DNA of 64,000 bases, from assembly GCA_003225315.1 (NCBI GenBank), contig QHZD01000017.1:248001-312000 (forward strand), read 5' to 3'. Source of the stretch: Acidobacteriota bacterium. GTDB taxonomy: Bacteria > Acidobacteriota > Terriglobia > Acidiferrales > UBA7541. The notes below the pieces were generated by a model. That model ran no database searches. It saw only the letters and a program-made list of their open reading frames with translations, and was not told the origin of the DNA. Both the position numbers and the translations under genes were made by a program. Positions 2,798 through 45,185 of this stretch are shown here, piece by piece (the stretch's first letter is position 1; each line of letters begins with the position of its first letter).

Positions 2798-3277
2798 ATG
2801 CGTTCTCTCAAAAGCTATATCACGCAAGCTGTCCATTCGGCTGATACACCTCTTGCAGCCTTGGTGTTTTTTGGGTCACTGCGCGATGCGTATTCTGGAC
2901 ACTATCTGCATGAGGGGTGGGGACAAATGGCCTCGGCTGAGGAAATCCATTCTGTGCTGAGTGAAACGCATCAATCGTTATTCAATTCGGTTGTAAGGCT
3001 TTCGCTCATAGACTTGAGCAAACAACTGCGAATGCACTTTCAGTCGCTCAACCAACCTGAGCGAGAAACGTGTGTCAGGTGGTTAGAAGTCGAACCTTTC
3101 CGTGACCTAATTCCCCAAGGATGTTCAGTGGTGGTGCGCGAACTGTTCGTCTCAGAGGTTAAGACTGCGTTGGAAGTGCTGTGTCACGCGCCTGAGTGGT
3201 CCGAGCTTGCGGTGGCACCAGTCGCATTGCCACAGCGACAACTTGACCGATCACCTCTGCTTCAGTGGCTAAACTGA
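2798..3277 (+). CDS. conserved hypothetical protein overlapping a convergent regulator
   Basis: 159 aa beginning MRSLKSYITQAV, soluble and largely helical, with a conserved-looking core (LVFFGSLRDAYSGHY, HLHEGWGQM-like). Its last 119 bp overlap the 3' end of the convergent XRE/S24 gene at 3159-3974, so each transcript carries antisense to the other. Both reading frames keep protein-like composition through the overlap. Function unknown; the arrangement suggests a partner of the regulator. Confidence 0.6.
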   Translation: MRSLKSYITQAVHSADTPLAALVFFGSLRDAYSGHYLHEGWGQMASAEEIHSVLSETHQSLFNSVVRLSLIDLSKQLRMHFQSLNQPERETCVRWLEVEPFRDLIPQGCSVVVRELFVSEVKTALEVLCHAPEWSELAVAPVALPQRQLDRSPLLQWLN

Positions 3278-3974
3278 ATATTCGGGGGGGTGCTTTAGAG
3301 ATAGGATGCGGAAGGATCGTGATGTGCGATTCCGAGACGTGGCACCAGCCGCAAAGATATCCATCGCGCAATTCAACAAGATAGATTGGACGTTCGTATT
3401 CGTTGTTCCACCCGTCGCTGGCTACTTGGCGGCGTTCCCCATCAATCGTCACAAGCGATCCGGGTCTCAACAAAGGATACATCGTGTTGTCTTCAAGGCC
3501 GATGTAGGCATACGTATGCTGTTTAGGACTGCATTCGAGAAGGAAAGCGGCAGGAATTTCACCCCAAAATGCAACGACTCGGTTGATAAGTTGAGTGGTT
3601 TCCCACTTGAAAGTCGGATCGAGCCGCACAGGAATCGTCACTTTTGTGTTGAGGTTGTGAAGCTCGGCAGAAACAGGCCGCGTTGCGGACAGCTTAATTT
3701 CCTCACGATATCTGTGGGTTCGATCCGAATCTACTCCATAGCTGGTCAAAATCTCGTGAAACGAAAGTCCGTAAATCGCAGCCAGTGTGAATATCTTGAA
3801 CACACTCGGTATTGCGTTGTCGTTTTCGATTTGTGCCAGTCTCGCTGCTGAAATATGGAACCGTTTGTTTTTTTCTTTGACGGCGATTTTTGCGCTTAGT
3901 TTTTGAACGTCGCGCAGTCCAAGCTGAAGTCGAAGCCGCACTTCGCGTAGGAAACTGCCAGGCGATATTTCCAT
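3159..3974 (-). CDS. XRE-family regulator with degenerate S24 (LexA/CI-like) domain
   Basis: 271 aa. Residues about 5-70 form an XRE helix-turn-helix (GLRDVQKLSAKIA, ISAARLAQIENDNAIPS, FKIFTLAAIYGLSFHEIL). Residues about 145-255 resemble an S24/LexA-CI C-terminal domain (EDNTMYPLLRPGSLVTID, YLVELRDGYLCGWC). The usual catalytic serine position (SM) reads TM, and the expected lysine is not visible, so self-cleavage is unlikely; the domain may dimerise or sense instead. The promoter has a perfect TATAAT at 4016-4011. A dyad at 4049-4063 lies upstream, shared with the divergent XRE gene. Likely a local repressor or activator. Confidence 0.8.
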   Translation of the reverse strand: MEISPGSFLREVRLRLQLGLRDVQKLSAKIAVKEKNKRFHISAARLAQIENDNAIPSVFKIFTLAAIYGLSFHEILTSYGVDSDRTHRYREEIKLSATRPVSAELHNLNTKVTIPVRLDPTFKWETTQLINRVVAFWGEIPAAFLLECSPKQHTYAYIGLEDNTMYPLLRPGSLVTIDGERRQVASDGWNNEYERPIYLVELRDGYLCGWCHVSESHITILPHPISKAPPRIFSLATEAEVIGQVVAVAMRLVPPQARTTQARDTALPTQS

Positions 3975-4048
3975 AGGTGACGACCTAGACCTTTGACGGG
4001 TGAGACCGAGATTATACGGGGCTTCCAGCGAGCCATCTTACCGAACCT

Positions 4049-4063
4049 GTTCATTTTTCTGAA
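4049..4063. promoter_or_regulatory. putative operator, copy 2, between divergent XRE genes
   Basis: GTTCATTTTTCTGAA, extended to TGTTCA-N6-TGAACA, a perfect 6-bp arm dyad. It lies about 50 bp upstream of the TATAAT of the 3159-3974 gene and 33 bp upstream of the -35 of the 4132 gene. It differs from the copy at 2701-2715 by a single base. Confidence 0.55.
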
Positions 4064-4095
4064 CACGATTCTGCTTTTTCCGCAGGACACATAAC

Positions 4096-4124
4096 TTGCT
4101 TTCTAAACGTCTCGGTGGGATAAT
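4096..4124 (+). promoter_or_regulatory. promoter giving a leaderless XRE mRNA
   Basis: TTGCTT (4096-4101), 17 bp, GATAAT (4119-4124). The expected transcription start, about 4131, coincides with the ATG at 4132, so the message would have essentially no 5' leader. The paralogue at 58173 shows the same geometry. Confidence 0.5.
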
Positions 4125-4131
4125 GCCGCGC

Positions 4132-4500
4132 ATGATAATTGGCGACCGTCTGCGCGAAATGCGCGAGGAAAAGAAACTCTCCCAAGGCGACATCGAAAAG
4201 CGCACAGGTCTGCTTCGCTGTTACATTTCCCGGGTAGAGAATGGTCATACTGTCCCCGCCATCGAAACACTGGAAAAAATGGCTCGCGCTTTAGAGGTTC
4301 CACTCTATCAACTCTTCTACGACGGCAATGAGCCGCCTCAAGTACCGAACCTGCTCAAGCGCAAGTCTGACGAAAATGTATGGGGTAACTCAGGCAAGGA
4401 TGCGCGATTTCTGAGCAAGCTCCGTCGTCTGTTGGGCAAGTCAAGCGAAGAAGACCGGAAGCTCTTATTGCACATGACGCAGAAAATGGCTGGCCGCTAG
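4132..4500 (+). CDS. XRE-family transcriptional regulator (short type), copy 1
   Basis: 122 aa starting MIIGDRLREMREEKKL. Helix-turn-helix at residues about 5-60 with the core LSQGDIEKRTGLLRCYISR followed by VENGHTVPAIETLEKMARAL. The C-terminal part is charged and ends FLSKLRRLLGKSSEEDRKLL. It is a clear paralogue of the 57790-58173 gene, with a near-identical DNA-binding region and start MVISDRLRAIREQKDL, which supports this start over the upstream ATG at 4123 and TTG at 4096. It has no ligand or peptidase domain. Probably a DNA-binding repressor; target unknown. A strong terminator follows at 4525. Confidence 0.85.
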   Translation: MIIGDRLREMREEKKLSQGDIEKRTGLLRCYISRVENGHTVPAIETLEKMARALEVPLYQLFYDGNEPPQVPNLLKRKSDENVWGNSGKDARFLSKLRRLLGKSSEEDRKLLLHMTQKMAGR

Positions 4501-6779: not shown

Positions 6780-6920
6780 GTGGCAAAAGACAAGCTCTTC
6801 TCTGTTCGATTGGAGGCGGAGACGTTGGAGAAACTCCAGAAGATTGCGAAGCGGGAAGACCGCAGCGTGAATTACGTTATCAACCAAGCATGCAAAGAGT
6901 ACGTCAAGGGGGCAAAATGA
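6780..6920 (+). CDS. ribbon-helix-helix (CopG/Arc-like) DNA-binding protein, 46 aa
   Basis: GTG at 6780 preceded by GGGAGG (6769-6772 region). The sequence begins with the beta-strand KDKLFSVRLEAETLEKLQKI and then KREDRSVNYVINQACKEYV, a canonical ribbon-helix-helix with FSVRLE as the strand and SVNYVINQA as the second helix. It overlaps the recombinase start (ATGA, 6917-6920). Likely autoregulator of the cassette or accessory factor of the recombinase. Confidence 0.7.
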   Translation: MAKDKLFSVRLEAETLEKLQKIAKREDRSVNYVINQACKEYVKGAK

Positions 6921-8170: not shown

Positions 8171-8463
8171 CCGTTTTCCATTTTGAATGCGGCGACTAAC
8201 CGCTGGATTTTCTCCGCTTGGTCTGGCGGGACTTTCCCCCGGCGAACATCCTTGCGAAAGCTAACGACTCGCCCAAAGAAATAATTTGCGAGTGCTGATT
8301 GCTCGCTAGGTTCAATGTGCCTGAAGATTTCCAACAGGGTTTCCAGTGGAAGATTACTGACTACCACGCGAAGCACTTGCAACGCGGATTCTGAAGAGCC
8401 GCTCCCACCGTGTTCTGGCAATCTCGCTTCTGGCATGTTTGATAATTTCTTTCTTATCGGCAT
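8167..8463 (-). CDS. small phage-type hypothetical protein, 98 aa
   Basis: Helical protein (LPLETLLEIFRHIEPSEQSA, then FFGRVVSFRKDVRRGKVPPDQ). It overlaps the 3' end of the 1095-residue gene by 110 bp if the ATG at 8463 is used, or 83 bp with the ATG at 8436. Neither has a strong Shine-Dalgarno. Coupled by ATGA to the HNH gene. No family recognised. Confidence 0.55.
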   Translation of the reverse strand: MPIRKKLSNMPEARLPEHGGSGSSESALQVLRVVVSNLPLETLLEIFRHIEPSEQSALANYFFGRVVSFRKDVRRGKVPPDQAEKIQRLVAAFKMENG

Positions 8464-11400
8464 CCTGCATGGTTCCCCATGCTTCGTTCTTCACCAGTTC
8501 GTTGAGGAATCCCGTGAGCATCTGGGCGTCCTGCGTCTGCAATGCGCGACTCTCTTCCGGTGATGTAACAGTGCTCGGTGCCTTCTCTCCGCGTCGCAAT
8601 CCTAGACCGGCTTTCGGCTGCGTGACTTTCTGTGGGGGGTTCTCGACCGAGTAACCCAAGCGCGCCATCTCTGACACGGCAGGATTATTTTTCTGCGTCG
8701 ATACAGGGAACGGGTTCATTCCACCAACCGCACTTGCAGGACGGCGGACAGGCTGGCCGCTGATGTCAGTCACGGCAGGAACATTTTGCGTGAGACCTGG
8801 GAGCTTCGCTTCAATGGCCTCGCCGATGCTTCCCGCCCTGCGCACAGTGGGATCGATTGCTTGCGCGGTCTGTGCGACGATTGCGGGCACGACTTCCGAT
8901 GCCTGATTGCGGACGAATCGTTGAATCCGGTTAGTGTTGCCCGGCTCCAACGCCTGCATCAAGTTCGATAGCGAATTGACGAATGGCAGATGTTCGATGT
9001 TCCTGGCGACAATTGCCTGGATGTGCTCTGCTTTCGACTTTACGCCTACACTTTCGGGGTCTTCGCCGTTATGAATCGCGTGCATCAAGTCGGCAGTCAG
9101 GCCCGCAACCATGCCCACGGGTTCCAGACGATTGTAGCTGTAGTATTTGCCGGCAATCTTGACTGAGTACGGCTGCCAGCCTGTCGCTTCGAGCGTCTGC
9201 TTCTTGCGGAAATCTAAGGGACCACCACCGCTTACGTTGCCTTGCATGGCGTGATAGGCAATGGCCGATGCGATGGCGCTCCCCACAATCCCGCGTGATG
9301 CAACGTCGATGTTCCCGCGCGCAACTCCCTTTGCGACACCGTATGGAGAATACTCCGCCGCTTGCTTGGCGATGTTCAGCGGAGTCTTGAAGAAAGGCGC
9401 GAGGTAGCGGAGTCCAGGGATTGTGCGGATGAATCTTTGCGTTGCTTTACCGTACTTTCCCAGGTCTGCCTGAAAGGTTTGGCGTTTCGCTTCGGCGTAT
9501 GCGGCCTGGCGCATTTCCGGCGTGGGATTCTCCGTCAAGAATGCCTGCCGTGATTCCAATGCTTGGCCCGTCAAACCCTCTTGTAGCGCCTTGCGGTACG
9601 CAAGTGATTCCAATTCACCGGCGTAGTTGATGACGTGCGCTGCGTCGCTGATCCTGCCAATGACAGTCATCGGAAAGCGGACGACCTTGCCCAGCGTACC
9701 CTTGATTGCGCCCACACGCTCACGCGAACCCTCGAAGCCAGGTCCGCTATCCTCGCCACCCAAAAGAATCCGGCCAGCGCGTCCGAGAGCGTTGGCGGCA
9801 CCTTTGGCGAATGACCATCCTTCAATTGCGGAACGGTCGCTGCTCAACGCACCGGCAACACTTTTGGAGATCGCATGGAGAAAAAGCATGGTCGCGTCGC
9901 TGGCCGCCTTGATGATTCCGGTCTTGGGCGACGAAAGCAGACTGTTCTGCCATGCCTCGAACAATTTATCCCAGTTCGAGGACGGCGTGAGTTCCGAGAC
10001 CAGTTTGTTGAGCGCGGCGGGATTGCTCGGGTCCGTCTTGGCGATTAGCTCGGCTGCGTGCTGTTGCTGGTCGGGCGATAGCTTCGACAGCAAGTCCGCG
10101 ATCTTTGCACTGGGCAAGTCCTCGTCCGCAATACGGAATGCACCAAGGGCACGGCCCGCCTCGCGGGCTACTTGCCCACGTACCACGTCTAGGGTTTCTC
10201 TGTGCTGCGACAAGGCGTTTGTCAGTTCGGAGTTCTCGACTTCTCCGCTGGCCGCTTTTCTTGCGAGGTCGAGCACACGCGCCTGACTTGCCTTGAGCAG
10301 GGATCGCGCGGCGGTTACTTCCTCGGCGTTGAACGGTGCGCCAGACTTGCGTGACAGGAGGTCTTCGACGCTCATGTTTAACTCGCTGGCGAGCTGGCGC
10401 TGCATGTCAAAAGTCAGCGTGTCCGTCACGCGGCTATCTAGGTTTTTCTTCAAGTGGTCGGCGGCACGTTCGAGTTGTGCTTGCACGTCATCGACGTTCT
10501 GGATTTTTGCCGGATCGATTCCGATCTTCTGCAGTTCCTCGCTGTTGTCCACCATGCGTTGGATACGCTCGGCTAGCACTTCGCTCTTCGTCACGACCGG
10601 CACATGCTCGTCCGCAACTACGCGATTCCCGTTCTGTCCTTCGAGGTTGGCGCGGTGCGCCTCGCGGATTTCCCCGGCCACGTCACGGCGATTCCCGCGC
10701 AGTCCTTCTTCGACATTACGCGCAGCTTCCGTGCGACGCCGGATGTCCGGCAACTCCGATTCGGAAACCGGACGGCCAAGCTGTTGCGAAACATCTTCGA
10801 GTTCCTGCGGATTCACGCGCTGCGGTGCAATGTCTTTCCATCCGGTCGCCTGCTCGCGGCGTTCCAATTCCGTGCGCTGTGCTTCCGTTTCGACCATGCG
10901 TACATCTGGCGCGGACTGTCCCTGGATGAGCGTGCCAACCGGCGACTGTGGATCGACCGCGTGTGTCTCGACGGGAACCTCGCTTGTCTTGCCGGTGATT
11001 GCTGCCTTCCCTCCTAGCGCGTGGCGTGCGCCCAGTGCGGCCATGCCGAGTTCAAGCCCCGCGTGGGTCAGAAGGTATTCAGCGCGGTTGGAATCGCCCG
11101 CCTTGAGCGCATTCCAAATGTCGGGACTCTTCTTTGCGGCATCGTAAATTTGTTGCGCCGCAAAGCCACCAGAGATTAGACGCGGGATTATTTTGGACGC
11201 AGCTCCACCGATTTCACCCAGCCCGCCACTGCCCGCAATCAGCGCAATGCTCTGGGGAGAAGTGAATCCCCCGGTTACTTCGCCGGTCGCAGTCAGTACG
11301 GGGTGGCGCTCCTGTTCGGCGGGCGTCATGGACTCTTCGGGCGAGAGTATTTGCGTGTTCCCGAATTTCGGGTTGTAGACAGTGCGGCTGGAAAGACTGG

Positions 11401-11641
11401 GAATGCCCTCCGTGAAAACGCGCGAGACTCTATCCCAGACCGTTGGCTTGTATGCGCCGATGCTTGCGTTCGATGGGAGCGAAAGGTTGGTCTGTAGCTC
11501 TGGTGGCGCGGGCTTGCTTGTCGGCGCTTCGCTCTTGTCGTCGAGCGGTTGGAAGGCAGACGGAGCGAACGAGACCTCTCCATCCACCGGATGAAAGTCT
11601 TCGGGCTTGAAAAACACTTCCGCGCTTTGACCGTTTGCCAT
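8354..11641 (-). CDS. large phage internal-virion/ejection-type protein, 1095 aa
   Basis: The N terminus carries two short related motifs (FFKPEDFHPVD and FAPSAFQPLD). Residues about 125-215 are Gly/Ala-rich and hydrophobic (SIALIAGSGGLGEIGGAASK, AGLELGMAALGARHALGG). A long helical centre follows (about 230-560). The region around residues 590-760 has NSLLSSPKTGIIKAASDATM and FFKTPLNIAKQAAEYSPYGV. Such proteins occur in podoviruses and in large polyvalent (LPD-type) proteins, and are thought to be ejected with DNA. No enzymatic motif is certain. It directly follows a second virion-type protein. Confidence 0.65.
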   Translation of the reverse strand: MANGQSAEVFFKPEDFHPVDGEVSFAPSAFQPLDDKSEAPTSKPAPPELQTNLSLPSNASIGAYKPTVWDRVSRVFTEGIPSLSSRTVYNPKFGNTQILSPEESMTPAEQERHPVLTATGEVTGGFTSPQSIALIAGSGGLGEIGGAASKIIPRLISGGFAAQQIYDAAKKSPDIWNALKAGDSNRAEYLLTHAGLELGMAALGARHALGGKAAITGKTSEVPVETHAVDPQSPVGTLIQGQSAPDVRMVETEAQRTELERREQATGWKDIAPQRVNPQELEDVSQQLGRPVSESELPDIRRRTEAARNVEEGLRGNRRDVAGEIREAHRANLEGQNGNRVVADEHVPVVTKSEVLAERIQRMVDNSEELQKIGIDPAKIQNVDDVQAQLERAADHLKKNLDSRVTDTLTFDMQRQLASELNMSVEDLLSRKSGAPFNAEEVTAARSLLKASQARVLDLARKAASGEVENSELTNALSQHRETLDVVRGQVAREAGRALGAFRIADEDLPSAKIADLLSKLSPDQQQHAAELIAKTDPSNPAALNKLVSELTPSSNWDKLFEAWQNSLLSSPKTGIIKAASDATMLFLHAISKSVAGALSSDRSAIEGWSFAKGAANALGRAGRILLGGEDSGPGFEGSRERVGAIKGTLGKVVRFPMTVIGRISDAAHVINYAGELESLAYRKALQEGLTGQALESRQAFLTENPTPEMRQAAYAEAKRQTFQADLGKYGKATQRFIRTIPGLRYLAPFFKTPLNIAKQAAEYSPYGVAKGVARGNIDVASRGIVGSAIASAIAYHAMQGNVSGGGPLDFRKKQTLEATGWQPYSVKIAGKYYSYNRLEPVGMVAGLTADLMHAIHNGEDPESVGVKSKAEHIQAIVARNIEHLPFVNSLSNLMQALEPGNTNRIQRFVRNQASEVVPAIVAQTAQAIDPTVRRAGSIGEAIEAKLPGLTQNVPAVTDISGQPVRRPASAVGGMNPFPVSTQKNNPAVSEMARLGYSVENPPQKVTQPKAGLGLRRGEKAPSTVTSPEESRALQTQDAQMLTGFLNELVKNEAWGTMQDADKKEIIKHARSEIARTRWERLFRIRVASASRGSQ

Positions 11642-11650
11642 TCGTCAACC

Positions 11651-12928
11651 CTATGGTGCTGGCACGCCAGCGATGGGACGCCCTTGGTCGTCGAGCTTGG
11701 TAATCATTTTGCGTTGGCCATTCACGATTCCGATGTCGCCGATCTTCACTGGCTTTTGCTGGTTTATTCTCTGGTCGGCGAGCTTGTTCTTGCGCGTCTG
11801 GTCAACGTCCTTGCGGTTTTGGTCGCGGTCTGACGTTTTCTTGAGCCGGTCTTCTCGAACCTTCTTTCGGTCTTCGTCCGCTTCCTTGCGGATTGTTTCG
11901 TGTTCATTGTGCGCGAGGCCAAGCACCTGTGACCACGGCATGCTGTAGCTTTGCTTTGGATCGGCGAGACCGCCAAGGGTCTTGGGGAATAGGTGGTTCA
12001 ACCTATCGCCGCCGATGGTAATGGGCTGAGGCTTTTGCGGGATGAAACTTACCCGCCATGTCGTCCGGTCTTCCAGGTTGACGGCATTCCCGTCGCCATC
12101 GATCCAGCCCTTGCCAGCGGGATCGTGCGTTAGACCGCTGGTGTCTATGTCGTGCGAGATAAGCCGGTCATAGCCCGATGGCGCGCGAAACTTGTTCGGA
12201 TCGCTGGTAAAAAGTTTCATCATCGCCTGGCCGTTGCGCAGTTCGCCATTACCCGGAATTGGCGCGACTATCCCACCGGCCTCGTGCGCCCACTTTTGAA
12301 TTTGCTGGGAGTTTTCGTTCTGTCGTTGGATGAATTCCGAATCGCGCAAGTTCGCATCGCGTTCGTGGAGTAATTGCTCTTTATTCCAATGCTCATGCGT
12401 CGCCGCTGACTGCAGCTTTTCCTGCGCGGCTCTGTCCAGCACTTGCTTGTTGGCGAAGTCCTGTTGCGCGCGCTGCTGCCGTTGCTGGTCGGCGGCCTGG
12501 TTTGCTTGGATGCTCGCAGCACCACCGCGAGAGAAGCCCGCGAGCACAGAGTTCGTTCCTTTGGCCGCAGCGCCACCGATCAAGGCCCCGGCCAATATGT
12601 GGCGAAATAAATCCCCTGGGCGCTGGGGCACTTCATACGCTTCTTGCTGGCCGGTTTGTGGATTCACGCGGTAGTCCACCTGCTTGCCAAGCAATGCTGC
12701 GGCCACGCGGCCCAGAAGTGAATGATGCGCATCTACGGCGTCTTTAGCGGATGGCTGCCGCGTGGGTCCGAGAGGGGGCGCTTGCTGTGGCGGTGCGGGA
12801 GCGCCGATGTTTGGAGGCGTCAAGTCCTGCTGCTGTGCGGGCGGCAGTCGCGGGTTCGCGGGCATCTGGCCGCCCGTGATGGCGAGAGAAGTTTGCGGAG
12901 AAACGGGGGAAGTATTTTCGTCTGGCAT
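11651..12928 (-). CDS. phage structural/internal virion protein, 425 aa
   Basis: A Pro/Gln-rich N terminus (PANPRLPPAQQQDLTPP, PAPPQQAPPLG) precedes a glycine-rich hydrophobic stretch (HILAGALIGGAAAKG), then a long Gln-rich coiled coil (residues about 140-215, QQRQQRAQQDFANKQ). A globular region with FIPQKPQPITIGGDRLNHLF follows, then a highly charged helical region (DEDRKKVREDRLKKTSDRDQ). This matches internal core or tail-associated virion proteins of podophages. It lies between the 83-aa and 1095-aa genes of one operon. Confidence 0.55.
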   Translation of the reverse strand: MPDENTSPVSPQTSLAITGGQMPANPRLPPAQQQDLTPPNIGAPAPPQQAPPLGPTRQPSAKDAVDAHHSLLGRVAAALLGKQVDYRVNPQTGQQEAYEVPQRPGDLFRHILAGALIGGAAAKGTNSVLAGFSRGGAASIQANQAADQQRQQRAQQDFANKQVLDRAAQEKLQSAATHEHWNKEQLLHERDANLRDSEFIQRQNENSQQIQKWAHEAGGIVAPIPGNGELRNGQAMMKLFTSDPNKFRAPSGYDRLISHDIDTSGLTHDPAGKGWIDGDGNAVNLEDRTTWRVSFIPQKPQPITIGGDRLNHLFPKTLGGLADPKQSYSMPWSQVLGLAHNEHETIRKEADEDRKKVREDRLKKTSDRDQNRKDVDQTRKNKLADQRINQQKPVKIGDIGIVNGQRKMITKLDDQGRPIAGVPAP

Positions 12929-13260: not shown

Positions 13261-13605
13261 TCAAAGAATGAGGTCGGGACGTGTATCGACTAACGACAAG
13301 ACACTACTTGCGCCAGTAACCACGGTGGCAATCGGAATTCCATCTGGACCTACGTTAGCGTTCGTTGTGACGGCGATAATCGGCGTTACTTGACCCGGGA
13401 CGGCTTGCGCTGTAAATGGGAGGGTGATGTCGCCGATTTGTAGAAATTGGATGTAGACGAAACTGGTGGAATTCGGCGCGAGCGGAATTATGGTCAAGGG
13501 CAACTTCGTAATGACGTTGCTGCAAAGGACAGTCCCCGGGCTTATGGTAACTTGCAAACCTGGACCGCCCAGGTAAGGCGCGAATGCACTGCTGCTTTGG
13601 TTCAT
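13261..13605 (-). CDS. phage structural-type beta-rich protein, 114 aa
   Basis: Strongly beta-rich and poor in charged residues (GGPGLQVTISPGTVLCSNVI, NSTSFVYIQFLQIGDITL, PIATVVTGASSVLSLVDTRP). This resembles N-terminal parts of tail spikes or decoration proteins. It starts 11 bp after the upstream gene. Function unproven. Confidence 0.5.
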   Translation of the reverse strand: MNQSSSAFAPYLGGPGLQVTISPGTVLCSNVITKLPLTIIPLAPNSTSFVYIQFLQIGDITLPFTAQAVPGQVTPIIAVTTNANVGPDGIPIATVVTGASSVLSLVDTRPDLIL

Positions 13606-14755: not shown

Positions 14756-15108
14756 ACTTCATCCGATTCTTGTGGGGTATCAAGCTGGGGATCGACAGGG
14801 GCTACCAGCTCTGGCGGCAGCGGGGCTACATGCGGGGCATCATGCAGGCCAATTAGCTTGGCAACTGCCGGGTCAATTTGCTCCGACTCACGAAAAAATA
14901 ATTCCTTCATGGCGGCCAGACGCGCGTGCGCAGCCCTCTTCTTGTCGCTTGCTAGCCTGCGGAGTAGCCATTCCTTGGAGCCAGGTGCATACGTTGGGAA
15001 GTGGGCCGGGATCGGGAGATCGAGCAACCTCAACGCTTCTAACTGCGTGGCAGCCGAACCGTGGGATGCGAGATAAGACAGGATTGTACGTGGCAGTGGA
15101 TACTTCAT
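14752..15108 (-). CDS. phage-type hypothetical protein, 118 aa
   Basis: Helical, MKYPLPRTILSYLASHGSAA followed by QLEALRLLDLPIPAHFP and a Lys/Arg-rich middle, with an acidic Pro-rich tail (APVDPQLDTPQESDEV). Its stop overlaps the SSB ATG. First gene of the replication/virion block after a 183-bp spacer at 15109-15291 in which I see no gene. Confidence 0.55.
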   Translation of the reverse strand: MKYPLPRTILSYLASHGSAATQLEALRLLDLPIPAHFPTYAPGSKEWLLRRLASDKKRAAHARLAAMKELFFRESEQIDPAVAKLIGLHDAPHVAPLPPELVAPVDPQLDTPQESDEV

Positions 15109-15291
15109 GTCGAGTTCATGGTGAAGTAGTCGGGCAGTCGTCGAAAATGGTGGCGCGAAAACGGCTAACCGCTGTGGTTTTCAAGGTGATGTGCGGAAAT
15201 GCGAGCTAGTTATGCGGCAAATTGCCCGGCAAAATAACAAATACGATGGCAGTGCCACAACGCGAGGTAACAACCGCGCCCATTACAGGTA

Positions 15292-16032
15292 TCAAACGAC
15301 CTTCGCAAGCTGCCCCATGAAAATGTGAACCTGACGAATAAGGTTGTCCGCCTCTTCCAGCGTATATGTGTCGTTGGGATGCATGACTTCGTTCCGCCAT
15401 GCAAGTTTTACGCTGTAGAGATTTGCTGATGCAGCGGCAAATTCCTTTGTGGTCTGGGCCCTTTGGTCCAACGCTTTGATGGCCTTGTTGATCTCATCCA
15501 ATATGTTTTGCCAGTTCTTCTCATTGGTGAGCGTCACACCAAGTTTTGTTCCGAATTGCTGAACCCCAACTTCCATGATGCGCATGAGGTGAAAGACTAC
15601 AGCAGTGCTTCTTCCCGCCGCATAGCAGTTGCCAGCTTCCGCTACATCATATTGAATTGTGGGAAATTTCTTGTTGACCTCCTCTCCAAGAAGTTCGGGC
15701 CTGTTATAGCGACTCGCCCGGTCTGGCGGGATGAACATAAATAAGTTTTGCTCCATTTCATCCTGGATTCGAGATTGAATTTCAGGGATGATTCCCTGCC
15801 ATTCGCTGACAGTTTCCGTCCCCCGATCTATACGGTCAATTCCGCGAGTGATGAGCTTTGACGCAAGCCGGAGGTTCAGCGCATCGCACTTGGCTTTCAG
15901 ATCGGGTAGCCAGCTCGTAAAAATAATACTGTCCTTCTTTATGACTTCTTTTGGATTCTCGACCTGTACTCCGCGCAATCTCTCCAGCACCCGCGCGATG
16001 GCAAAGAACGTGTGAGCATTGAATTTTTCCAT
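15292..16032 (-). CDS. HEPN-like protein with C-terminal RX4H motif
   Basis: 246 aa from ATG 16032 (MEKFNAHTFFAIARVLERL), which has GGTGG just upstream; a TTG at 16128 is possible but adds an unconvincing N terminus. The protein is helical. Near the C terminus it has HLMRIMEVGVQQFG, NWQNILDEINKAIK and LAWRNEVMHPNDTYTLEEA. RNEVMH fits the RX4-6H signature of HEPN ribonucleases, and the spacing to MEVGV and the terminal helix fits a four-helix HEPN bundle. HEPN proteins often act in abortive infection or toxin-antitoxin systems. No cognate antitoxin is evident. The gene lies downstream of the inverted repeat at 16367. Confidence 0.65.
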   Translation of the reverse strand: MEKFNAHTFFAIARVLERLRGVQVENPKEVIKKDSIIFTSWLPDLKAKCDALNLRLASKLITRGIDRIDRGTETVSEWQGIIPEIQSRIQDEMEQNLFMFIPPDRASRYNRPELLGEEVNKKFPTIQYDVAEAGNCYAAGRSTAVVFHLMRIMEVGVQQFGTKLGVTLTNEKNWQNILDEINKAIKALDQRAQTTKEFAAASANLYSVKLAWRNEVMHPNDTYTLEEADNLIRQVHIFMGQLAKVV

Positions 16033-16270
16033 GTTCCACCAGCTAAAAAGAGAATAGGGAGCATCTCCCCACGGGGGAAGTGTGCTCCGTTCGCTCCTAC
16101 TGGTAAGGCATTCAATCTTTGTGGTCAAGGGGTAATCGCCTTAGATGCTCGCGGGGCCTTTCATGGGAACAGACAGAGTGGATGTTCCTTTTCATTAGAA
16201 GCAATTCCAGAAGACGATCCGAGTCAAGAGGGAGGGAGGCGGTCCAGGTCGTAGCGCCTCCCCATAATTT

Positions 16271-16305
16271 CCCGATTAGCCACACGGAGAGAGTGGGTAA
16301 TCGGG
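16271..16305 (-). other. hairpin in the leader region of the HEPN-like gene
   Basis: CCCGATTA (16271-16278) pairs with TAATCGGG (16298-16305), and an inner CCAC (16280-16283) pairs with GTGG (16293-16296). There is no T tract, so it is not a terminator. The rest of 16033-16366 holds no convincing gene. Confidence 0.45.
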
Positions 16306-16366
16306 CTGTATAGCTATCAGACTCCGCAAACGGGGATACGGTTACAAAAAAATGTTTGACTAGGGA

Positions 16367-16381
16367 GTCCGCAAAACGGAC
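16367..16381 (-). promoter_or_regulatory. inverted-repeat operator GTCCG-CAAAA-CGGAC, site 1
   Basis: Perfect dyad upstream of the HEPN-like gene. A degenerate copy (CTCCGCAAACGGGG) lies at 16322-16335. On its far side GAATCCGAAAAAGCATT (16398-16414) matches the sequence beside site 2 (17123-17140). Confidence 0.6.
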
Positions 16382-16483
16382 GGCTACGTTACTTGTTGAA
16401 TCCGAAAAAGCATTCCATCTACACTGCCTTCGTGACTTTCCTCCTAAAAATGCGAGTACTCGTCAAAAGGCAGATTCTCGCGT

Positions 16484-17050
16484 TCAGCGCGGGTTGATGA
16501 GGGGTGTGGGTCTTACGAGAGGGGAATCGTCTGGCCCTTGGATGGCCTCTCTAACCGCGATGAAGTCCCTAACAACAAGCAGCGTCTTCGAGGAGTCTAT
16601 GCCAATACCGAACAACGCTTGCTGAAGGCGGCTTGCCAAACCAGCGTTGCTCGTTCCCGTTCTACGCATCACTTCGACAATGCACTCTCGCATCGCTGTT
16701 GTCTGGGCAATGTTCGGTTGCTTGCCGATCAACTCTCGTGTGAGTTTGTCCGTAAAGCTCACTACAACGGGCCACGGTGGTCGGTCACTATCCTCTGCAA
16801 ATCTCATCATTACGTGCGCAAGCCCCTGGCTTAGATGATTCTGCCAAGTCCGCACTTCCTTCAACGTCAGCAGTGTCGAGTCCAGTGCTTGCTCCGGCGT
16901 TGATGAGTCTCGCTTCACCCACCCTCTGCCTGTCGGTTTAAGTTCGTCCTGGCGAACGGACTGAGGACTGGCGGGATTGAACTGAGCTGCTGTTGGACGT
17001 GGGGAGTAAATCAGGAGGAGCAAAACAGAGAGAGAGGTTCCGATGCGCAT
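16484..17050 (-). CDS. secreted protein of unknown function, 188 aa
   Basis: ATG at 17050 with CAGGAG 7 nt upstream. A signal peptide is clear (MRIGTSLSVLLLLIYSPRPT, cleavage likely after TAA before QF). The mature part is helical and charged (TLLTLKEVRTWQNHLSQGLA, MRECIVEVMRRTGTSNAGLA, SKTLLVVRDFIAVREAI). No lipobox or catalytic motif is seen. It is transcribed from an extended -10 promoter (17070-17075) overlapped by the dyad at 17096-17110. An exported protein between phage-type genes is unusual and suggests an accessory (moron-like) role. Confidence 0.6.
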   Translation of the reverse strand: MRIGTSLSVLLLLIYSPRPTAAQFNPASPQSVRQDELKPTGRGWVKRDSSTPEQALDSTLLTLKEVRTWQNHLSQGLAHVMMRFAEDSDRPPWPVVVSFTDKLTRELIGKQPNIAQTTAMRECIVEVMRRTGTSNAGLASRLQQALFGIGIDSSKTLLVVRDFIAVREAIQGPDDSPLVRPTPLINPR

Positions 17051-17069
17051 ACCCTATCTCCTGTGGCGG

Positions 17070-17110
17070 AGTATAGCACAACCAAGAGATGGCGCGTCCG
17101 CAAAACGGAT
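17070..17110 (-). promoter_or_regulatory. extended -10 promoter with inverted-repeat operator, site 2
   Basis: On the minus strand TGCTATACT gives an extended -10 (TATACT at 17075-17070). ATCCGTTTTGCGGAC (17110-17096) covers the -35 position, as expected for a repressor site. Farther upstream GAATCCCGAAAAAGAATT (17123-17140, plus strand) repeats the flank of site 1. Confidence 0.6.
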
Positions 17111-17227
17111 GCAAACAATACTGAATCCCGAAAAAGAATTGCCGGGAAATTGCCTTCTAGCGTCCAGAGTGAGGTTCAGGCTATGGGGATAGCAGGAGCC
17201 GAATTTTGCGTCTGCAAGTTATTCATT

Positions 17228-17482
17228 CTACGCCGCTAATTTTGGGGTTTCGTAACACTCAGAAGCCTTCGGGGGTTCATGTAGCCTTTGCCGGTATGCC
17301 CGCTGTTTCGCAGCGTTATTCCTATGCTTCTTTGGCCTTCCGCCCAGATGTTCTGGTGCGCTCTCGACCGGCTCGAAAGTTATGGAACGGCGCATGTTCC
17401 GCTGTAGATTTTCGTAGCGACGCGGATCAGTGCGCTCTAATTCGCGCATGAACGCGGCGTCCGCTTTCTTGCTAACATTCAT
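17228..17482 (-). CDS. small basic phage-type protein, 84 aa
   Basis: ATG at 17482 with a perfect AAGGAGG 4 nt upstream. Highly charged (MNVSKKADAAFMRELERTDP, NLQRNMRRSITFEPVE, GGRPKKHRNNAAKQRAYRQR). The C-terminal basic helix could bind DNA or RNA. It starts 12 bp after the replication-initiator-like gene. Confidence 0.6.
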   Translation of the reverse strand: MNVSKKADAAFMRELERTDPRRYENLQRNMRRSITFEPVESAPEHLGGRPKKHRNNAAKQRAYRQRLHEPPKASECYETPKLAA

Positions 17483-17494
17483 GCGGCCTCCTTC

Positions 17495-18424
17495 TCAAGC
17501 CACGGCAGACCGTCCCGCAAATTGCTGCGCTTTTTCTTTAAGCCAGGCCAGCAGGTCTGGACTCTTGGCTTCCACCAAGCGGTAGGCGTGCTTGTTGAAT
17601 TTATCCTCGGCGCTGTCCGTGATTGCTTCCCAATCGTGGTCATGCTGACCGATAAGGTTATCTTTTGCTTCTCTGTAGTACTCGACGGATTGGGGAATCT
17701 GCGCGCCACTCTTAATACTGGCTGCTCGGTATAAAATCCACAGCACCAAATCGAATGCGCTCCTCTCTTCCATCTCCTGACAGAAGGAATTAAAGGCTTG
17801 CACAGCAGCCAGCGGTGCAGCGTCCTTTTGCTGCAACGCGGTATCAGTATCTCTAACCTTGTCGGTTAAAGAATGATCGGTTCGGCACTCACCATGAGTG
17901 GGTTTTGACATTCCGCTCGCTGGTATGAGTGGGTTTGCATTCTCGGATGAGTGGGTTTCTGCGCTAATCTGCCCCCCCTCGTCACCGTTGGTCGCCCTTC
18001 CAACCTGAGATGATTGGGTTTCTTCAATCGCTTCCCACCACTTTTGCTGCTGAAAGATGTCGAAAATCTTGCGGTCCTTGATAAAGTATTGGACCGTGCA
18101 GTTCTTGCCCCGCCCGCCCTTCTTTCCCTGCCGCGTTGAAATATCCACAACGAGCCGATCCTTGTATTCCAACTCGCGGAGCACACGCCGAGCCTGGGCC
18201 GTGCTGCAACTCGCTTTCGCGGCTATGTCATTGAGTCCCGGCCAGACGTTGGGATAGCGGTCACAGAGGGCGCGGAGCACGGCTTTCTTCACTTTGTCCG
18301 GGCGGTGTTGTCCGCGAAGGTTAGGTCTGATGAAAACCAGATGGGAGGCGATATGCGAGAGCCTGTATGCGGACAGGCCGACGATGGGATTTATTTCAAT
18401 TCGCTGCATTGGCGGCGGCCACAC
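17495..18424 (-). CDS. phage replication-initiator-like protein with winged helix
   Basis: 309 aa. Residues about 25-110 form a helix-turn-helix/winged helix like RepA or phage O-type initiators (KVKKAVLRALCDRYPNVWPG, NDIAAKASCSTAQARRVLRE, KDRLVVDISTRQGKKGGRGK). A Ser/Thr-rich linker follows, then a helical C-terminal part (NSFCQEMEERSAFDLVLWIL) that would contact helicase or clamp loader. The GTG at 18424 is used; the ATG at 18409 is an alternative. It overlaps the previous small gene by 34 bp. With the SSB and clamp-loader-like genes it completes a small replication set. Confidence 0.6.
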   Translation of the reverse strand: MWPPPMQRIEINPIVGLSAYRLSHIASHLVFIRPNLRGQHRPDKVKKAVLRALCDRYPNVWPGLNDIAAKASCSTAQARRVLRELEYKDRLVVDISTRQGKKGGRGKNCTVQYFIKDRKIFDIFQQQKWWEAIEETQSSQVGRATNGDEGGQISAETHSSENANPLIPASGMSKPTHGECRTDHSLTDKVRDTDTALQQKDAAPLAAVQAFNSFCQEMEERSAFDLVLWILYRAASIKSGAQIPQSVEYYREAKDNLIGQHDHDWEAITDSAEDKFNKHAYRLVEAKSPDLLAWLKEKAQQFAGRSAVA

Positions 18425-18594
18425 ATTCTCTGCACGAATATCCTGTCGCGGCGTTGAAAATAAATACCCTCTGCGTGGGCCTTGCGCGCGGCCTGGCGAT
18501 CCTCACGCCTGCCAATCCTCCGCAGGTCAATGGGGTATCGCTCGCCCTCGTATCCCGCTGCGTAAAACCGATAAAGCACGTCGCTCATATCCAT
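18391..18594 (-). CDS. small phage-type protein, 67 aa
   Basis: ATG at 18594 with GGAGG 5-6 nt upstream, giving MDMSDVLYRFYAAGYEGERY followed by IDLRRIGRREDRQAARKAHA. Short proteins of this sort, with a tyrosine-rich N terminus and an Arg-rich helix, are common in phage early regions. The 3' end overlaps the initiator-like gene. Confidence 0.5.
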   Translation of the reverse strand: MDMSDVLYRFYAAGYEGERYPIDLRRIGRREDRQAARKAHAEGIYFQRRDRIFVQRMCGRRQCSELK

Positions 18595-18674
18595 GTCGGC
18601 CTCCAGTGATGAAAAATGTCGTGAGGGCAAAATGCCCCATAAGAGCCATTTTATCACCGGCCCGTCAACCTTTT

Positions 18675-19053
18675 TCAGCCAGCCGCAACCGTTTCCGGTT
18701 CCACGTCCGACGTGTACTCATCGGCACCCTCATTGGCAGGGTCACGATCCGCGTCCGTTTTGCGGATTTTCTGCGTGTCGCTGCGCGCTTGCACGCAGAG
18801 GATTCCTGGCCGCCCCTGGTCGCTTTCGGGATACGTCCTGAAAATGAACGCAAGCCGGGCCGGATCGGTCACGATGCAATCCGCCACCGGCGAGCGCCAG
18901 CGGTCCAACGCAGGGCGCGGCATGGTTCCAATTCGTGATGCGCGATTGCTCAAGGTTCTCCTCGCACTCGTACCACACCAGCTCGTCGCCGCTAATGGGG
19001 CAGCGGGGCGGGAGATGTTGCTCGCGTGCTTCGCGTTCAGAAAGTTCATGCAC
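18675..19053 (-). pseudogene. small phage-type gene, apparently frameshifted
   Basis: From a GTG at 19053 the frame reads convincingly (HELSEREAREQHLPPRCPIS, GDELVWYECEENLEQSRITN) until about 18920, after which this frame becomes Arg-rich nonsense ending at 18742. From there another frame reads well (SPVADCIVTDPARLAFIFRT, YPESDQGRPGILCVQ) to 18675. Either one gene carries a single frameshift near 18915-18925, or the second part is a separate ORF from ATG 18923 (82 aa) with a poor ribosome site. A CPIS...WYEC pair could bind zinc. Confidence 0.45.
18753..18767. promoter_or_regulatory. copy of the GTCCG/CGGAC-type dyad inside a gene, site 3
   Basis: GTCCGTTTTGCGGAT, matching sites 1, 2 and 4 at 14 of 15 positions or better, but within the coding frame (IRKTDAD) and without the conserved flank. 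It could be a silencing/loop site or chance. Confidence 0.3.
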
Positions 19054-19066
19054 TAACACCTGCCAG

Positions 19067-19108
19067 AATAAAAAAAGGCCGAGATCGTGTTTGAGCACGA
19101 TCCCGGCC
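19067..19108 (-). terminator. strong rho-independent terminator on the minus strand
   Basis: GGCCGAGATCGTG (19077-19089) pairs with CACGATCCCGGCC (19096-19108) with one mismatch and a 6-nt loop. On the minus strand it is followed by seven T (19076-19070), then ATT. There is no minus-strand gene upstream, so it ends a short RNA or acts as an attenuator for the gene at 19053. Confidence 0.85.
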
Positions 19109-19251
19109 TGGCGGGGTCCACTTTTAGTGGGGTTTTGCTCGGCGCTACCGAGCAAGATCAATTTGTTTTCCCGCCAGGGACTAAACCAGATTCCATCCGT
19201 TCGTACTTCGGGATGGTCGTGCCGCATCACAGGGATCGCATTCGCGCGTCC
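19067..19251 (-). ncRNA. candidate structured RNA or attenuator leader, about 185 nt
   Basis: Read on the minus strand: a hairpin (CCATCC 19216-19211 with GGATGG 19198-19193), then a three-way junction closed by CCTGGCGGG (19178-19170) and CCCGCCAGG (19115-19107). It encloses an 8-bp hairpin TTGCTCGG/CCGAGCAA (19155-19148, 19142-19135) and a 5-bp hairpin CCACT/AGTGG (19130-19118), and ends in the terminator at 19108-19067. The outer stem shares two bases with the terminator stem, so the two may compete. A TATATA -10-like box at 19264-19259 would start transcription near 19251; no good -35 is seen. Confidence 0.45.
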
Positions 19252-19308
19252 CTCTACTTATATATGTGTGCTTTTCGCGGGCTTCTTGTTCAATTTATTT
19301 GGGCGTCA

Positions 19309-19323
19309 GTCCGTTTTGCGGAC
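19309..19323 (+). promoter_or_regulatory. inverted-repeat operator GTCCG-TTTTG-CGGAC, site 4
   Basis: Perfect dyad 91 bp before the ATG of the AlbA_2-like gene and 45 bp upstream of the candidate -10 of the minus-strand RNA, so it could control both divergent transcripts. A weaker version of the flank (GCTTTTCGCGGGCTTC, 19270-19285) precedes it in the same relative orientation as at sites 1 and 2. Confidence 0.6.
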
Positions 19324-19413
19324 GAGGGACTTTCTATTTCTGCGTATACGTTTGTCGATTTCCCTGAACAATCGTGCTATGTGACAATCGAGAAAGAATC
19401 GAGCAGATTCCCT

Positions 19414-21201
19414 ATGGCCCAATCCCAGCAACCCGAAAACAAAAACCGTTCGACTCCGAGCCTGCCAGAACGAGCCACCGGGTATAAGCAAGAAGTTGAG
19501 AAGGTCGTGCGTGAAGTGGGGGAACACCCGCTGTATGAACTGAAACGCTCCTGCTCGTTCCGAAATCTTGCAGAGAAAATCGAGTTCGTGAAAGACATAC
19601 AGTCCATAGCCACTTCACACATCCAAACAGAGAAATTCTTGGTTATAGGCGCTGATGGCGCGACCAAGACTTTTCATGCAGTCCACAATATGAACGAGTT
19701 CGACGAAGCCGCCGTTAGACAATTGCTGGAGAAGTACCTCAGCCCAGTGCCGGACTTTGAGTTATTTCAAATGACTTCATCGGACGGATGCCCTTTTGTC
19801 CTCTTCGTTGTTCCGAAGCAGAAAAGGCGAAGAATCCTCGCGAAAGTCACGGTAGAGGATTCGACGGATGCGAAATCGAAAATCGTGCTCCGGGAGGGCG
19901 ACCTTTGGACGAAGGGTACATCCACTGGAAAGAGACTCGCCAAGCCCGAGGATTGGGACGAAATCTATGAGGAAGTAATTGAGACGGAGACAGAGCGACG
20001 GACAAGGCAGAGGACGGCCCATGCGCTCGAAATGGCAACCGCCCGAGAAAAAGTGCGTCTGAGCTATGGGCAGTCGTCCCTGCCCAGTTTTTTTACCGAC
20101 GAAGAATTTCCGGCTTTGATGGAAAATTTGTGTAGTGCGCAAGATGGACCTCGGTTCAATGTGCTCTTGGAGCGATTGCGTGATGACCTGGTTGAAGGAT
20201 GGCACCAAATAGGAGCCTACGAAGAATCGCCAGCACTGTTGGCTAATCCCGCCGCTTCTCTACTCGGGTTAAGAGAAAGAGTACGCGAGAATATTAAGAA
20301 TGTGTTTCGCCCCGCGATGCACTGGTTGACTCTTGCCGGAATATACGTCGTAAAAAACAGCGGGCCGGTTGCGTTCTTGGATGCGGTTGCCGATTTGTTG
20401 AAGGAAGTATTTGACACGTCCCACCAGTTGGTGATGGCTCGCTCATTGACGCCTCTCGGAGCTACCTCCCCTAGCGCAGACGAGCATGTGAGCCATACCG
20501 TCCCGGCCCTTGAGAGTCTGGTTTCGCTTCATCTAATCGGTGCTTATCTGACTAAGCGGAAACGGTTTCAGTATTTGAGAAGTCTCTTTCGACCTGATGT
20601 GTATCCCGCTGGGCAGCGATTAAGCGAGCAAGAAAGGAAAACCCTGATGGCTTTTTGGCCGCTCGGTTTGGGGTGCGGGGAACCAGCAGAACTTCAGTAT
20701 CGGGCCGGGAAAATCAATCATTGTGCCAAAAGGATTGAAACGGATTTGTCATACCTTCACCTGTTTGGCTCAGGAACAACCGCGACGGGGGCACTCTGTC
20801 AGTATGAGTTGTGCCTAGAGCTAAACTCCCATGTCGCTATGCCTAGTGACGACACCCAAGAATCGTCAGCTTACGTTGCAAAGATGTATCCCGAGATGTA
20901 CTTCACCTTCTGGCCCAGCCTAATAGCATTCCCTCTTGAGTATATTCATGGCTTGGCGCTGACACTATTTTCCGAGATTAAGAAAGCGAAGCCCGATCTT
21001 CTCAAACTCATCCTTTTCGACTCGGCGTTCGTTGGCTTTTTGACGAGGCCGGGGTCAGACATGGTATTCGCAAGATTTCTGAGCGGTCTCGCAAGCAACC
21101 AAGCGCAGTTGCACATGGAGATGCGCCGGTTCCCTTCCATGCAATTTTGGCCGAAAGAACTGGATGCCGCGATTAAACAGTCGCGGAGGAACAAGACATA
21201 G
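19414..21201 (+). CDS. AlbA_2/Schlafen-type N-terminal domain protein, 595 aa
   Basis: Start at ATG 19414 (MAQSQQPENKNRSTPSLPER); the open frame upstream to 19087 runs through RNA structures and is not protein-like. Residues about 30-200 fit a divergent AlbA_2 domain: LYELKRSCSFRNLAEKIEFV, KDIQSIATSHI, KFLVIGADGATKTFHAV, FVLFVVPKQKRR and REGDLWTKGTSTGKRLA (the usual R-x-G-s-s element). The remaining 400 residues are helical with no recognised motif (RERVRENIKNVFRPAMHWLT, SSAYVAKMYPEMYFTFWPS). AlbA_2 proteins bind nucleic acid or nucleotides and recur in phage-defence contexts. It is preceded by dyad site 4. Confidence 0.65.
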   Translation: MAQSQQPENKNRSTPSLPERATGYKQEVEKVVREVGEHPLYELKRSCSFRNLAEKIEFVKDIQSIATSHIQTEKFLVIGADGATKTFHAVHNMNEFDEAAVRQLLEKYLSPVPDFELFQMTSSDGCPFVLFVVPKQKRRRILAKVTVEDSTDAKSKIVLREGDLWTKGTSTGKRLAKPEDWDEIYEEVIETETERRTRQRTAHALEMATAREKVRLSYGQSSLPSFFTDEEFPALMENLCSAQDGPRFNVLLERLRDDLVEGWHQIGAYEESPALLANPAASLLGLRERVRENIKNVFRPAMHWLTLAGIYVVKNSGPVAFLDAVADLLKEVFDTSHQLVMARSLTPLGATSPSADEHVSHTVPALESLVSLHLIGAYLTKRKRFQYLRSLFRPDVYPAGQRLSEQERKTLMAFWPLGLGCGEPAELQYRAGKINHCAKRIETDLSYLHLFGSGTTATGALCQYELCLELNSHVAMPSDDTQESSAYVAKMYPEMYFTFWPSLIAFPLEYIHGLALTLFSEIKKAKPDLLKLILFDSAFVGFLTRPGSDMVFARFLSGLASNQAQLHMEMRRFPSMQFWPKELDAAIKQSRRNKT

Positions 21202-21689
21202 CCCCAAATCCTGAGCGTCTGGCAGAGCGCCAGCGGGAACTGTAAGAAGTGGTGCGCGAAGTTACATGCTGGAAGGAAGCGCATGCAACGACGATGAAAG
21301 CGATCCTGCGCGAGTACCTGCAAGAAGAGGTAGACACGCTTCGACCGCGCACCTTGGAGGTAGTCAACGGCAGTGCCCAGCCGAGTTTACAGGCAACGAG
21401 TTTACAGAGCGATTCGAGTTTACGGTAAACTCTGGCCCGCACACGCCGCAGATAGGAGCCTACGCGGGAATTGGAACCGGAATCGTTGCGACGGCCCCAC
21501 CGTGCGTTTCTCGCCCCCGGCACCACCCGTTCGCGCCATCGCTTCGTCCTTGAAGAAATCTGCTTTGGCGTGAGCAAGATGCGTCGTTTTCCCACGTGAA
21601 CTCGCCTTTTTCGAACGCGCCAGCAAGCGAATGTACTCGTGCGCGACGCGGCATTCTGCGGCCTTCCGGAGTACGCGCATAAACACAAG
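21202..21689. other. boundary region with decayed coding traces
   Basis: No full gene. From 21249 a frame of about 60 codons reads MKAILREYLQEEVDTLRPRT and ends SLQATSLQSDSSLR at 21426; the 17 codons before its upstream TAA (21243) also look coding (APNPERLAERQREL). This looks like the tail of a lost gene. The region marks the change from phage-type to chromosomal genes. Confidence 0.35.
21383..21432. repeat. GAGTTTAC repeats ending in a 17-bp palindrome
   Basis: GAGTTTAC occurs at 21383-21390, 21398-21405 and 21416-21423. The last copy continues as G-GTAAACTC (21424-21432), giving an 8+1+8 palindrome. Part of this is coding repetition (SLQ..SLQ..SSLR) in the decayed frame. Confidence 0.5.
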
Positions 21690-45034: not shown

Positions 45035-45048
45035 TGTCTCTCACCTTC

Positions 45049-45088: not shown

Positions 45089-45185
45089 TTGTCTTTTGCC
45101 GAGGGCTTCGCCCAGCCGGTCGCTTGGGGTGACGCCCGGTCAAGGAAAAGAACCTCTCGCCGATTTTTGTTCATTTGCGGACACG

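Follow-up and report, generated by a model that had tools for sequence, protein, structure and literature searches.

Palindromes of an integrated Acidobacteriota element belong to a class of marks dispersed through the genomes of an uncultured phage lineage

We analysed 64,000 nt of the genome of an Acidobacteriota bacterium (contig QHZD01000017.1, here C1, positions 248,001–312,000 of the forward strand; this whole stretch is the window), into the left part of which an integrated element of some 28 kb, in part derived from a phage, extends. An earlier note on this DNA, made from the sequence alone, had described a 15-bp inverted repeat, GTCCG-N5-CGGAC, in front of three accessory genes of the element and had suggested a single regulator for them. 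The repeat is confirmed as genuine and as specific to the one element. It belongs to a class of marks dispersed in phage genomes, each 15–19 bp long and made of two half-sites of about seven bases on either side of a centre of three, mostly A/T. In one uncultured phage lineage such marks are found about once per 2–4 kb, both within and outside coding DNA, and they are re-tuned in its relatives. The best candidate for a reader of the palindrome is a phage protein of about 220 aa with a predicted ParB/Noc/KorB DNA-binding fold, which we regard as a solid lead and not as a result; that such a protein also reads the element in trans, with some control of promoters there, we infer.

The genome was counted over 4,975,678 bases, with the word read backward as a control. 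The inner 13-mer, TCCGCAAAACGGA, occurs exactly five times (about 0.15 copies expected by chance per genome and 0.0008 per element; control, none), and all five copies lie at C1 243244–267322, inside the element. Four are within the window and the fifth is about 4.7 kb to its left. The earlier note had called for such a count, with hundreds of copies as the outcome to fear; there are five. Since no exact copy was found in the host outside the element in the whole genome, the word is not an abundant chromosomal repeat of the repetitive extragenic palindrome (REP) or HIP1 kind, and a host-wide repeat is ruled out. Ten places with one mismatch are listed in the genome, one of them in the element (TCCGCAATACGGA at C1:258125, window 10125), and allowing up to two mismatches gives 233 places against 159 for the control, which is too unspecific for use. 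When the general pattern GTCCG-N5-CGGAC is allowed one mismatch, the window has six matches against a shuffle mean of 2.97, and 7 of 100 shuffles reach six; this excess is only mildly unusual, and it is the fixed spacer that carries the strength. A weight matrix trained solely on the sites of a 96-kb viral contig (IMGVR_UViG_3300050016_000047, here G451), and so blind to the element, finds at 14 bits or more six sites in the element (19.9–23.4 bits), the sixth being a further site at window 10124; the 75.9 kb of host DNA on the flanks have one. When the element is scanned for palindromes by itself and without bias, nothing striking emerges (two exact 15-mers), and counts of palindromes with 6-bp arms, taken by gap, gave no informative signal.

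The perfect form GTCCG-N5-CGGAC is present at 16367–16381 (site A, minus strand, GTCCGTTTTGCGGAC) and 19309–19323 (site C, plus strand, GTCCGTTTTGCGGAC). The other two copies to which the earlier note gave the same form, 17096–17110 (site B, minus strand, ATCCGTTTTGCGGAC) and 18753–18767 (site D, plus strand, GTCCGTTTTGCGGAT), end in CGGAT and are one outer base off (14/15), while the inner 13-mer is exact on one strand of all four. The stated placement upstream of three genes holds: A is about 335 bp from the ATG at 16032, B about 46 bp from the ATG at 17050 and C about 90 bp from the ATG at 19414. Searches of Pfam, NCBIfam and PADLOC did not support the names HEPN-like and AlbA_2-like, which the earlier note gave to the first and third of these genes and which are kept here as labels. 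Site D was said to lie inside a gene; the site is there, and the small minus-strand frame that contains it, 18675–19049, is of doubtful status. Across 18675–19230 two overlapping minus-strand frames resemble one frameshift-split gene, with D in the downstream part. The degenerate copy proposed at 16322 is not supported, as it is not among the places that reach 11 bits with the G451 matrix. Two copies come in addition to those first described: C1:243243–243257, left of the window and upstream of a large serine recombinase gene, and 10124–10138 (plus strand, GTCCGCAATACGGAA), inside a virion-protein gene and with the spacer CAATA that is common in G451. As claimed, the two minus-strand sites A and B share a second flank, GAATCCGAAAAAGCATT at 16398–16414 and GAATCCCGAAAAAGAATT at 17123–17140, both read on the plus strand. 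The common part, GAATCC(C)GAAAAAG, has no other match in the element and one further match in the phage contig G454, and the two flanks suggest an old duplicated upstream region.

A scan of IMG/VR for the word returned at least 120 stretches, and among the matches listed three contigs have more than one copy: G451 with 14 exact and 18 one-mismatch copies, G452 (91 kb) with 4 and 2, and G453 (19 kb) with 2 and 0. The two copies in G453, a viral contig (L155 2799 and 15567), share a longer flank, GATCCGTTTTGCGGACCCACACTGA. G451 is a phage whose genes include those of a DNA polymerase, a primase-helicase, a UvsX-like recombinase, an integrase and a ribonucleotide reductase, along with one that has a portal or head-tail adaptor match. 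It has 47 TCCG-N5-CGGA sites, whose main spacers are CAAAA, CAAAG, CAATA and CATTA; most are in predicted genes, and because both orientations occur within one gene direction the marks are not RNA-oriented. Three element proteins, of 425, 1095 and 114 aa, are homologous to G451 proteins, and among nine phage contigs those of 425 and 114 aa cluster only with G451 and G457. Profiles of all 129 families common to at least two of these sources otherwise gave only a weak SSB match in the element.

Relatives of the UvsX protein led to 78 loci, in which 5-base inverted repeats were counted without bias; counts were then made over the nine contigs. This revealed other words of the same frame in the relatives. 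GTCCG-5-CGGAC was observed 28 times in G451 (0.19 expected) and 14 times in G457 (0.10 expected), GTTCA-5-TGAAC 23 times in G454 (0.22 expected) and TTCAC-3-GTGAA 19 times in G456 (0.19 expected). The last two are one word, GTTCAC-N3-GTGAAC, in the same frame as the GTCCG word. G461 has a third sequence, GCACA-1-TGTGC (8 observed, 0.17 expected), and G452, G458, G459 and G462 have no top word of this frame, G458 being dominated by an AT repeat. The consensus is TTG-TCCGC-WWW-GCGGA-CAA in G451 and TTG-TTCAC-NNN-GTGAA-CAA in G454, with the outer TTG/CAA conserved at 42–80% per position; of the phage consensus, the inner 13 bases are retained in the element. Thus tens of near-identical palindromes, far above expectation, are carried by G451, G454, G456 and G457, and the element has six in 28 kb. 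In five phages, using a simple caller of open reading frames (ORFs), 35 of 89 sites were outside ORFs of at least 80 aa against 15.2 expected, and 54 were inside. Among 35 pairwise protein alignments at sites, the mark is a clean insertion of five residues in one, and in eight others gaps of one to three residues fall there; the marks therefore arose mostly by substitution, which favours selection on the DNA. An inserted palindrome is ruled out, as 34 of the 35 comparisons lack a clean whole-site insertion.

Some neighbouring observations concern these contigs. G454 (L352–L356) also has CCTAG-N11-CTAGG ten times, with 0.03 expected. In G454 and G456 (L356, L366) marks within genes can encode SQSE-type linker peptides, as they do in the tail of SSB, where the two phages have them at corresponding positions. 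A UvsX-related viral locus (L313 3592–13976) has six TTAAA-N5-TTTAA palindromes, several directly after a TTGAC-like word; in this they resemble a set of promoter operators and differ from the marks inside genes.

Elsewhere the word is scattered. It was present in 13 of 60 other genomes and in 48 of 395 other genomes of the phylum, in one to three copies and never twice on a contig. A genome collection gave at least 118 stretches, and among the matches listed 116 have one copy and two have two (L174, L239). In L239, a contig of Bacterium HR30 from a hot spring, two 15-mers at 4566 and 4734 lie 168 bp apart in a repeated longer flank. Coincidental matches can come from zinc ribbons, whose motif CPFCG is encoded by one of the G451 sites, TGTCCGTTTTGCGGA. 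Host regions encoding the 425-aa protein in four other genomes have no dispersed palindrome of this kind. In searches for doubled motifs, no listed record of a sequenced phage has more than four places with the GTCCG word or more than two with the GTTCAC word, and no listed plasmid record has more than two with the GTCCG word. The exact palindrome words had no match in the literature searched.

The candidate reader belongs to a family of proteins of about 220 aa present in seven of the nine phage contigs. Its sequence profiles have no convincing match in Pfam, a PDB sequence search returned unrelated weak matches, and the Pfam matches of seven members at E 1 include no ParB N-terminal (CTP-binding) domain. 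No isolated phage with the gene was found. AlphaFold2 models of the G451 member (predicted local distance difference test score 81.0) and the G454 member (77.9) were aligned to experimentally determined structures. In VIA-align 2 the G451 model gave Spo0J first (Z 8.0, root-mean-square deviation 4.0, 114 aligned), with ParB, Spo0J or Noc in all of rows 1–9; the G454 model gave Noc with its DNA site first (Z 8.2, root-mean-square deviation 3.7, 113/116 aligned), with ParB, Noc or KorB in all of rows 1–11. That one family fills the top of the list in both comparisons exceeds what chance would give, and the two models are not independent because the same eleven sequences were used. A viral structure library gave weak matches to uncharacterised phage proteins, one of them named ParB (E 2.0). 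In ParB, residues G170, K171, S172 and R173 are among those reported to contact parS, and R173 is one of those that set specificity (PMC7383237). In a correspondence drawn by eye, the modelled recognition helix starts with GKGR in G451, G452 and G457, with RGR in G454 and a near copy, and with RGK in G456. Such letters occur in six contigs of the palindrome-bearing branch, whereas ten contigs of a palindrome-poor branch have TPGQL-like ones. The check for palindromes covered, in eight of these ten, one or two loci no longer than 21 kb each, and several of the ten closely duplicate one another. The candidate reader gene itself carries two marks in G454, and in G456 a mark lies near its start.

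In the element, three of the six copies are intergenic and share a promoter-like geometry. A, B and C each have a −10-like hexamer (TGTAAC, TATACT and TATACG) 20–21 bp downstream, 20 bp for B and 21 bp for C, all in the TTTTG orientation, a shared spacing with P = 0.0045 against random intergenic element positions when the best offset is chosen freely. The three sites would be centred near −40, overlapping a poor −35, and the shared hexamer makes an effect on promoters plausible at these copies. At 17096, where an extended −10 promoter had been proposed, TGC-TATACT does follow the site.

A number of results weigh against these interpretations, beginning with the promoters. A sigma-70 consensus scan of 15000–21500 found no promoter, where shuffles would give 3.8, and at the phage sites a −10 matching at least four of six bases is present in 10 of 76 orientations against 7.5 expected (five of six in 2 against 1.0), which is no clear excess. 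If A and B are one old duplication, as their second flank may indicate, the independent sites are fewer. The upstream regions of six HEPN-like and one AlbA-like homologue elsewhere have no palindrome with this spacer, and one such region has TCCG-CCCGC-CGGA. As to the protein, Pfam at E 1 detects no ParB helix-turn-helix domain in the family, the best ParB-like match in Foldseek is weak (E 2.5), and the unrelated protein Raf1 reaches Z 6.3 in row 10 with the G451 model and Z 5.6, next after row 11, with the G454 model; helical models can reach a Z of about 8 by chance, through a common arrangement. The association of protein with palindrome is a single deep lineage split and not repeated co-variation. 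G452 has a GKGR protein, yet 12 TCCG-N5-CGGA sites (four with CAAAA) and no top-ranked palindrome, while in G461, which has the eight palindromes of the third kind, the reader family was not detected. In the element itself, a profile search found no member.

Dispersal and copy number resemble those of stoperators, and the marks could be dispersed operators of a lysogeny repressor, either CI-like or tyrosine-recombinase-like as MrpR is, that silences the whole prophage, with the sequence differences between relatives as immunity types. The surplus of sites outside ORFs fits this, a tyrosine integrase is encoded in G451, G452 and G457, and MrpR is reported to read a 15-bp repeat (PMC10516654). 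We nevertheless think it unlikely, given that 54 of the 89 sites are inside ORFs, in both orientations and with no clear link to a −10, and that no classical repressor helix-turn-helix is among the 25 of 43 Pfam families matched by 72 G451 proteins; stoperators, moreover, are asymmetric and follow transcription (PMC4351075), and the sites here are palindromic. Clearly unlikely is a regulon private to the element, in which an HTH_19, XRE or RHH protein controls the recombinase, HEPN-like, secreted-protein and AlbA-like genes. The exact word is confined to the element genome-wide, three intergenic copies share one spacing from a −10-like hexamer, and such regulators are encoded there (HTH_19 at 3159–3974, XRE at 4135–4500, RHH at 6780–6920). 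Against it, the same palindrome is scattered through phages whose genes in common with the element are those of the virion and, weakly, SSB, and two of the six element copies lie in reading frames. The single regulator suggested by the earlier note fits in so far as an element-specific palindrome most naturally points to one dimeric DNA-binding protein and the three intergenic copies share a hexamer spacing; a regulon private to the element or read by an XRE protein is not supported, as the palindrome recurs across phages, mostly in genes, and its best candidate reader is a ParB/KorB-type phage protein. The half-sites on the XRE side, GTTCA..TGAA(C/T), are moreover spaced by 6 bp and not by 5. 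The palindrome is probably not a private operator of those genes.

Occurrence in both orientations within genes would suit a passive or mobile repeat that has no reader, whether an over-represented word of the HIP1 type or a small inserted palindrome. We consider this very unlikely, with no exact host copy outside the element, the near absence of clean whole-site insertions, and a sequence that shifts in step with the phage lineage while its frame stays constant. The slimmest chance goes to a host protein as reader of the marks. The host genome does encode one distant ParB-like relative of the candidate (C27:44589–44882; E 2.4e-9), the strongest in the three of 396 phylum genomes with a profile match at E ≤ 0.01. 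Its neighbours are not phage-like, its contig has no top palindrome of this frame, and exact copies in the host are confined to the element. At this locus (L430 717–2321, C27 about 43,800–45,400), HNH-like and nuclease-like frames, recognised by eye, adjoin the gene, and there are no obvious phage genes.

The reading that we prefer, in which dispersed phage marks are read by the phages' 220-aa ParB-like protein and the element's marks are read by it in trans with some tuning of promoters, stands in our judgement about evenly between right and wrong. Noc and KorB act as dimers on scattered sites, with one helix-turn-helix per half-site, and the 220-aa protein would read its palindromes in the same manner. 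The element may have gained its marks by descent from such a phage or by living off one, and the phage protein would then act on it in trans when a phage infects the cell. The weakest step is that the protein, once bound at the intergenic copies A, B and C, might also tune transcription of the accessory genes, as KorB does just upstream of a −35. A fuller proposal is tentative, and we would not wager on it: that the phage lineage marks its genome at tens of palindromes read by its own small ParB/Noc-like protein, that protein and marks diverge together, and that the element, whether its reader gene was lost or never there, keeps the marks so that the phage protein handles it like DNA of the phage and activates the accessory promoters. 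If true, it would supply the missing reader class for repeats of the Corndog type. The lineage offers variants of the mark, matching variants of one small gene, and relatives that lack both the contact motif and the marks, so the question of the reader can be tested with few purified proteins and oligonucleotides. An integrated element that carries the marks of another phage is also a handle on the dependence of elements on phages.

The element appears to be integrated at a tRNA-Phe gene. A 579-aa large serine recombinase (Pfam Recombinase, Resolvase and zinc ribbon) adjoins this tRNA gene left of the window, and the 3′ end of the tRNA is repeated at window 21502–21525 (21 of 24 bases, the last 14 exact). 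The likely right end is therefore put at the repeat's 21512–21525 (plus strand, CGCCCCCGGCACCA), and the left end at L006:13376–13389, outside the window, which would give a length of about 28.1 kb. Element genes encode a clamp-loader-like AAA ATPase, a small resolvase, an RHH protein, an HNH protein, virion proteins and an SSB-like protein slightly below the Pfam cut-off; further genes have no family matches. No terminase, portal or capsid gene was seen among the element proteins scanned, a scan that took in part of the frames. On the minus strand lie the genes of the 1095-aa internal virion protein (8354–11641; PHROG 6651), homologous to the G451 gene next to that matching the 425-aa protein; of the 425-aa virion-module protein (11651–12928), homologous to G451 76342–78069 (34% identity) and to a G457 protein; and of the 114-aa protein (13261–13605), homologous to part of a G451 and of a G457 protein. 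The HEPN-like product matches phrog_32483, a PHROG that has no assigned function (E 8.6e-12). Near the HTH_19 and XRE genes, GTTCA-N6-TGAA(C/T) palindromes at 2701–2716 and 4049–4064 are probable operators of those regulators; around these genes (3159–4500) the G451 matrix has a single place, of 13.4 bits at 3676, and the palindrome with the 6-bp spacer is present there too. A cluster of terminator-like hairpins lies at 19076–19159, between the frame at 18.7 kb and the AlbA-like gene.

For a phage-wide marking system of this kind we found one clear precedent, described with no reader assigned. The Cluster O mycobacteriophages, among them Corndog and Catdawg, carry a 17-bp palindrome, TGTTCGG-NNN-CCGAACA, with 34 copies in Corndog; 29 of these have a central AAA/TTT, about a third are in genes, they have no orientation, and the repeat is absent from the host tested (PMC4351075). 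A dimeric protein was predicted to bind it, and Cluster O phages encode a ParB-like gp90; dispersed phage palindromes were described there with neither a reader nor a function assigned. In 32 kb of Catdawg our own scan finds the repeat again (29 observed, 0.14 expected), and the doubled-word search found it in 31 records. The marks described here share its 7-3-7 frame, its A/T centre (in the G451 and G454 consensus) and its dispersal in and between genes. They differ in half-site sequence and lie in unrelated phages, the sequence here varies between relatives, and here an integrated element carries marks and no candidate gene. No kinship of the candidate reader, a small protein, with Catdawg gp90 was detected (hhalign probability 0.2).

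With Noc and its NBS sites and with ParB and parS the likeness would be that palindromes are read by the same predicted DNA-binding fold; Noc sites, too, are dispersed, and the G454 half-site TTCAC is also the core half of parS. The difference is that the half-sites here are three bases apart and that the phage protein has 220 aa and no detected N-terminal CTP-binding domain. KorB of plasmid RK2, a ParB-family protein, reads the palindrome O_B, TTTAGC-S-GCTAAA, one copy of which is just upstream of the −35 at korAp (PMC2680271). The operator position is like that of the element's three intergenic sites, where regulation is a candidate by analogy; no such gene was found in the element, in which it differs. 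The stoperators of Cluster A phages and the SPBRE sites read by MrpR in SPbeta likewise comprise many dispersed copies of one short word per phage genome. Stoperators, however, are asymmetric and oriented (PMC4351075), and the SPBRE peaks lay at promoter regions (PMC10516654), unlike the symmetrical marks of this lineage, which lie in coding and non-coding DNA alike.

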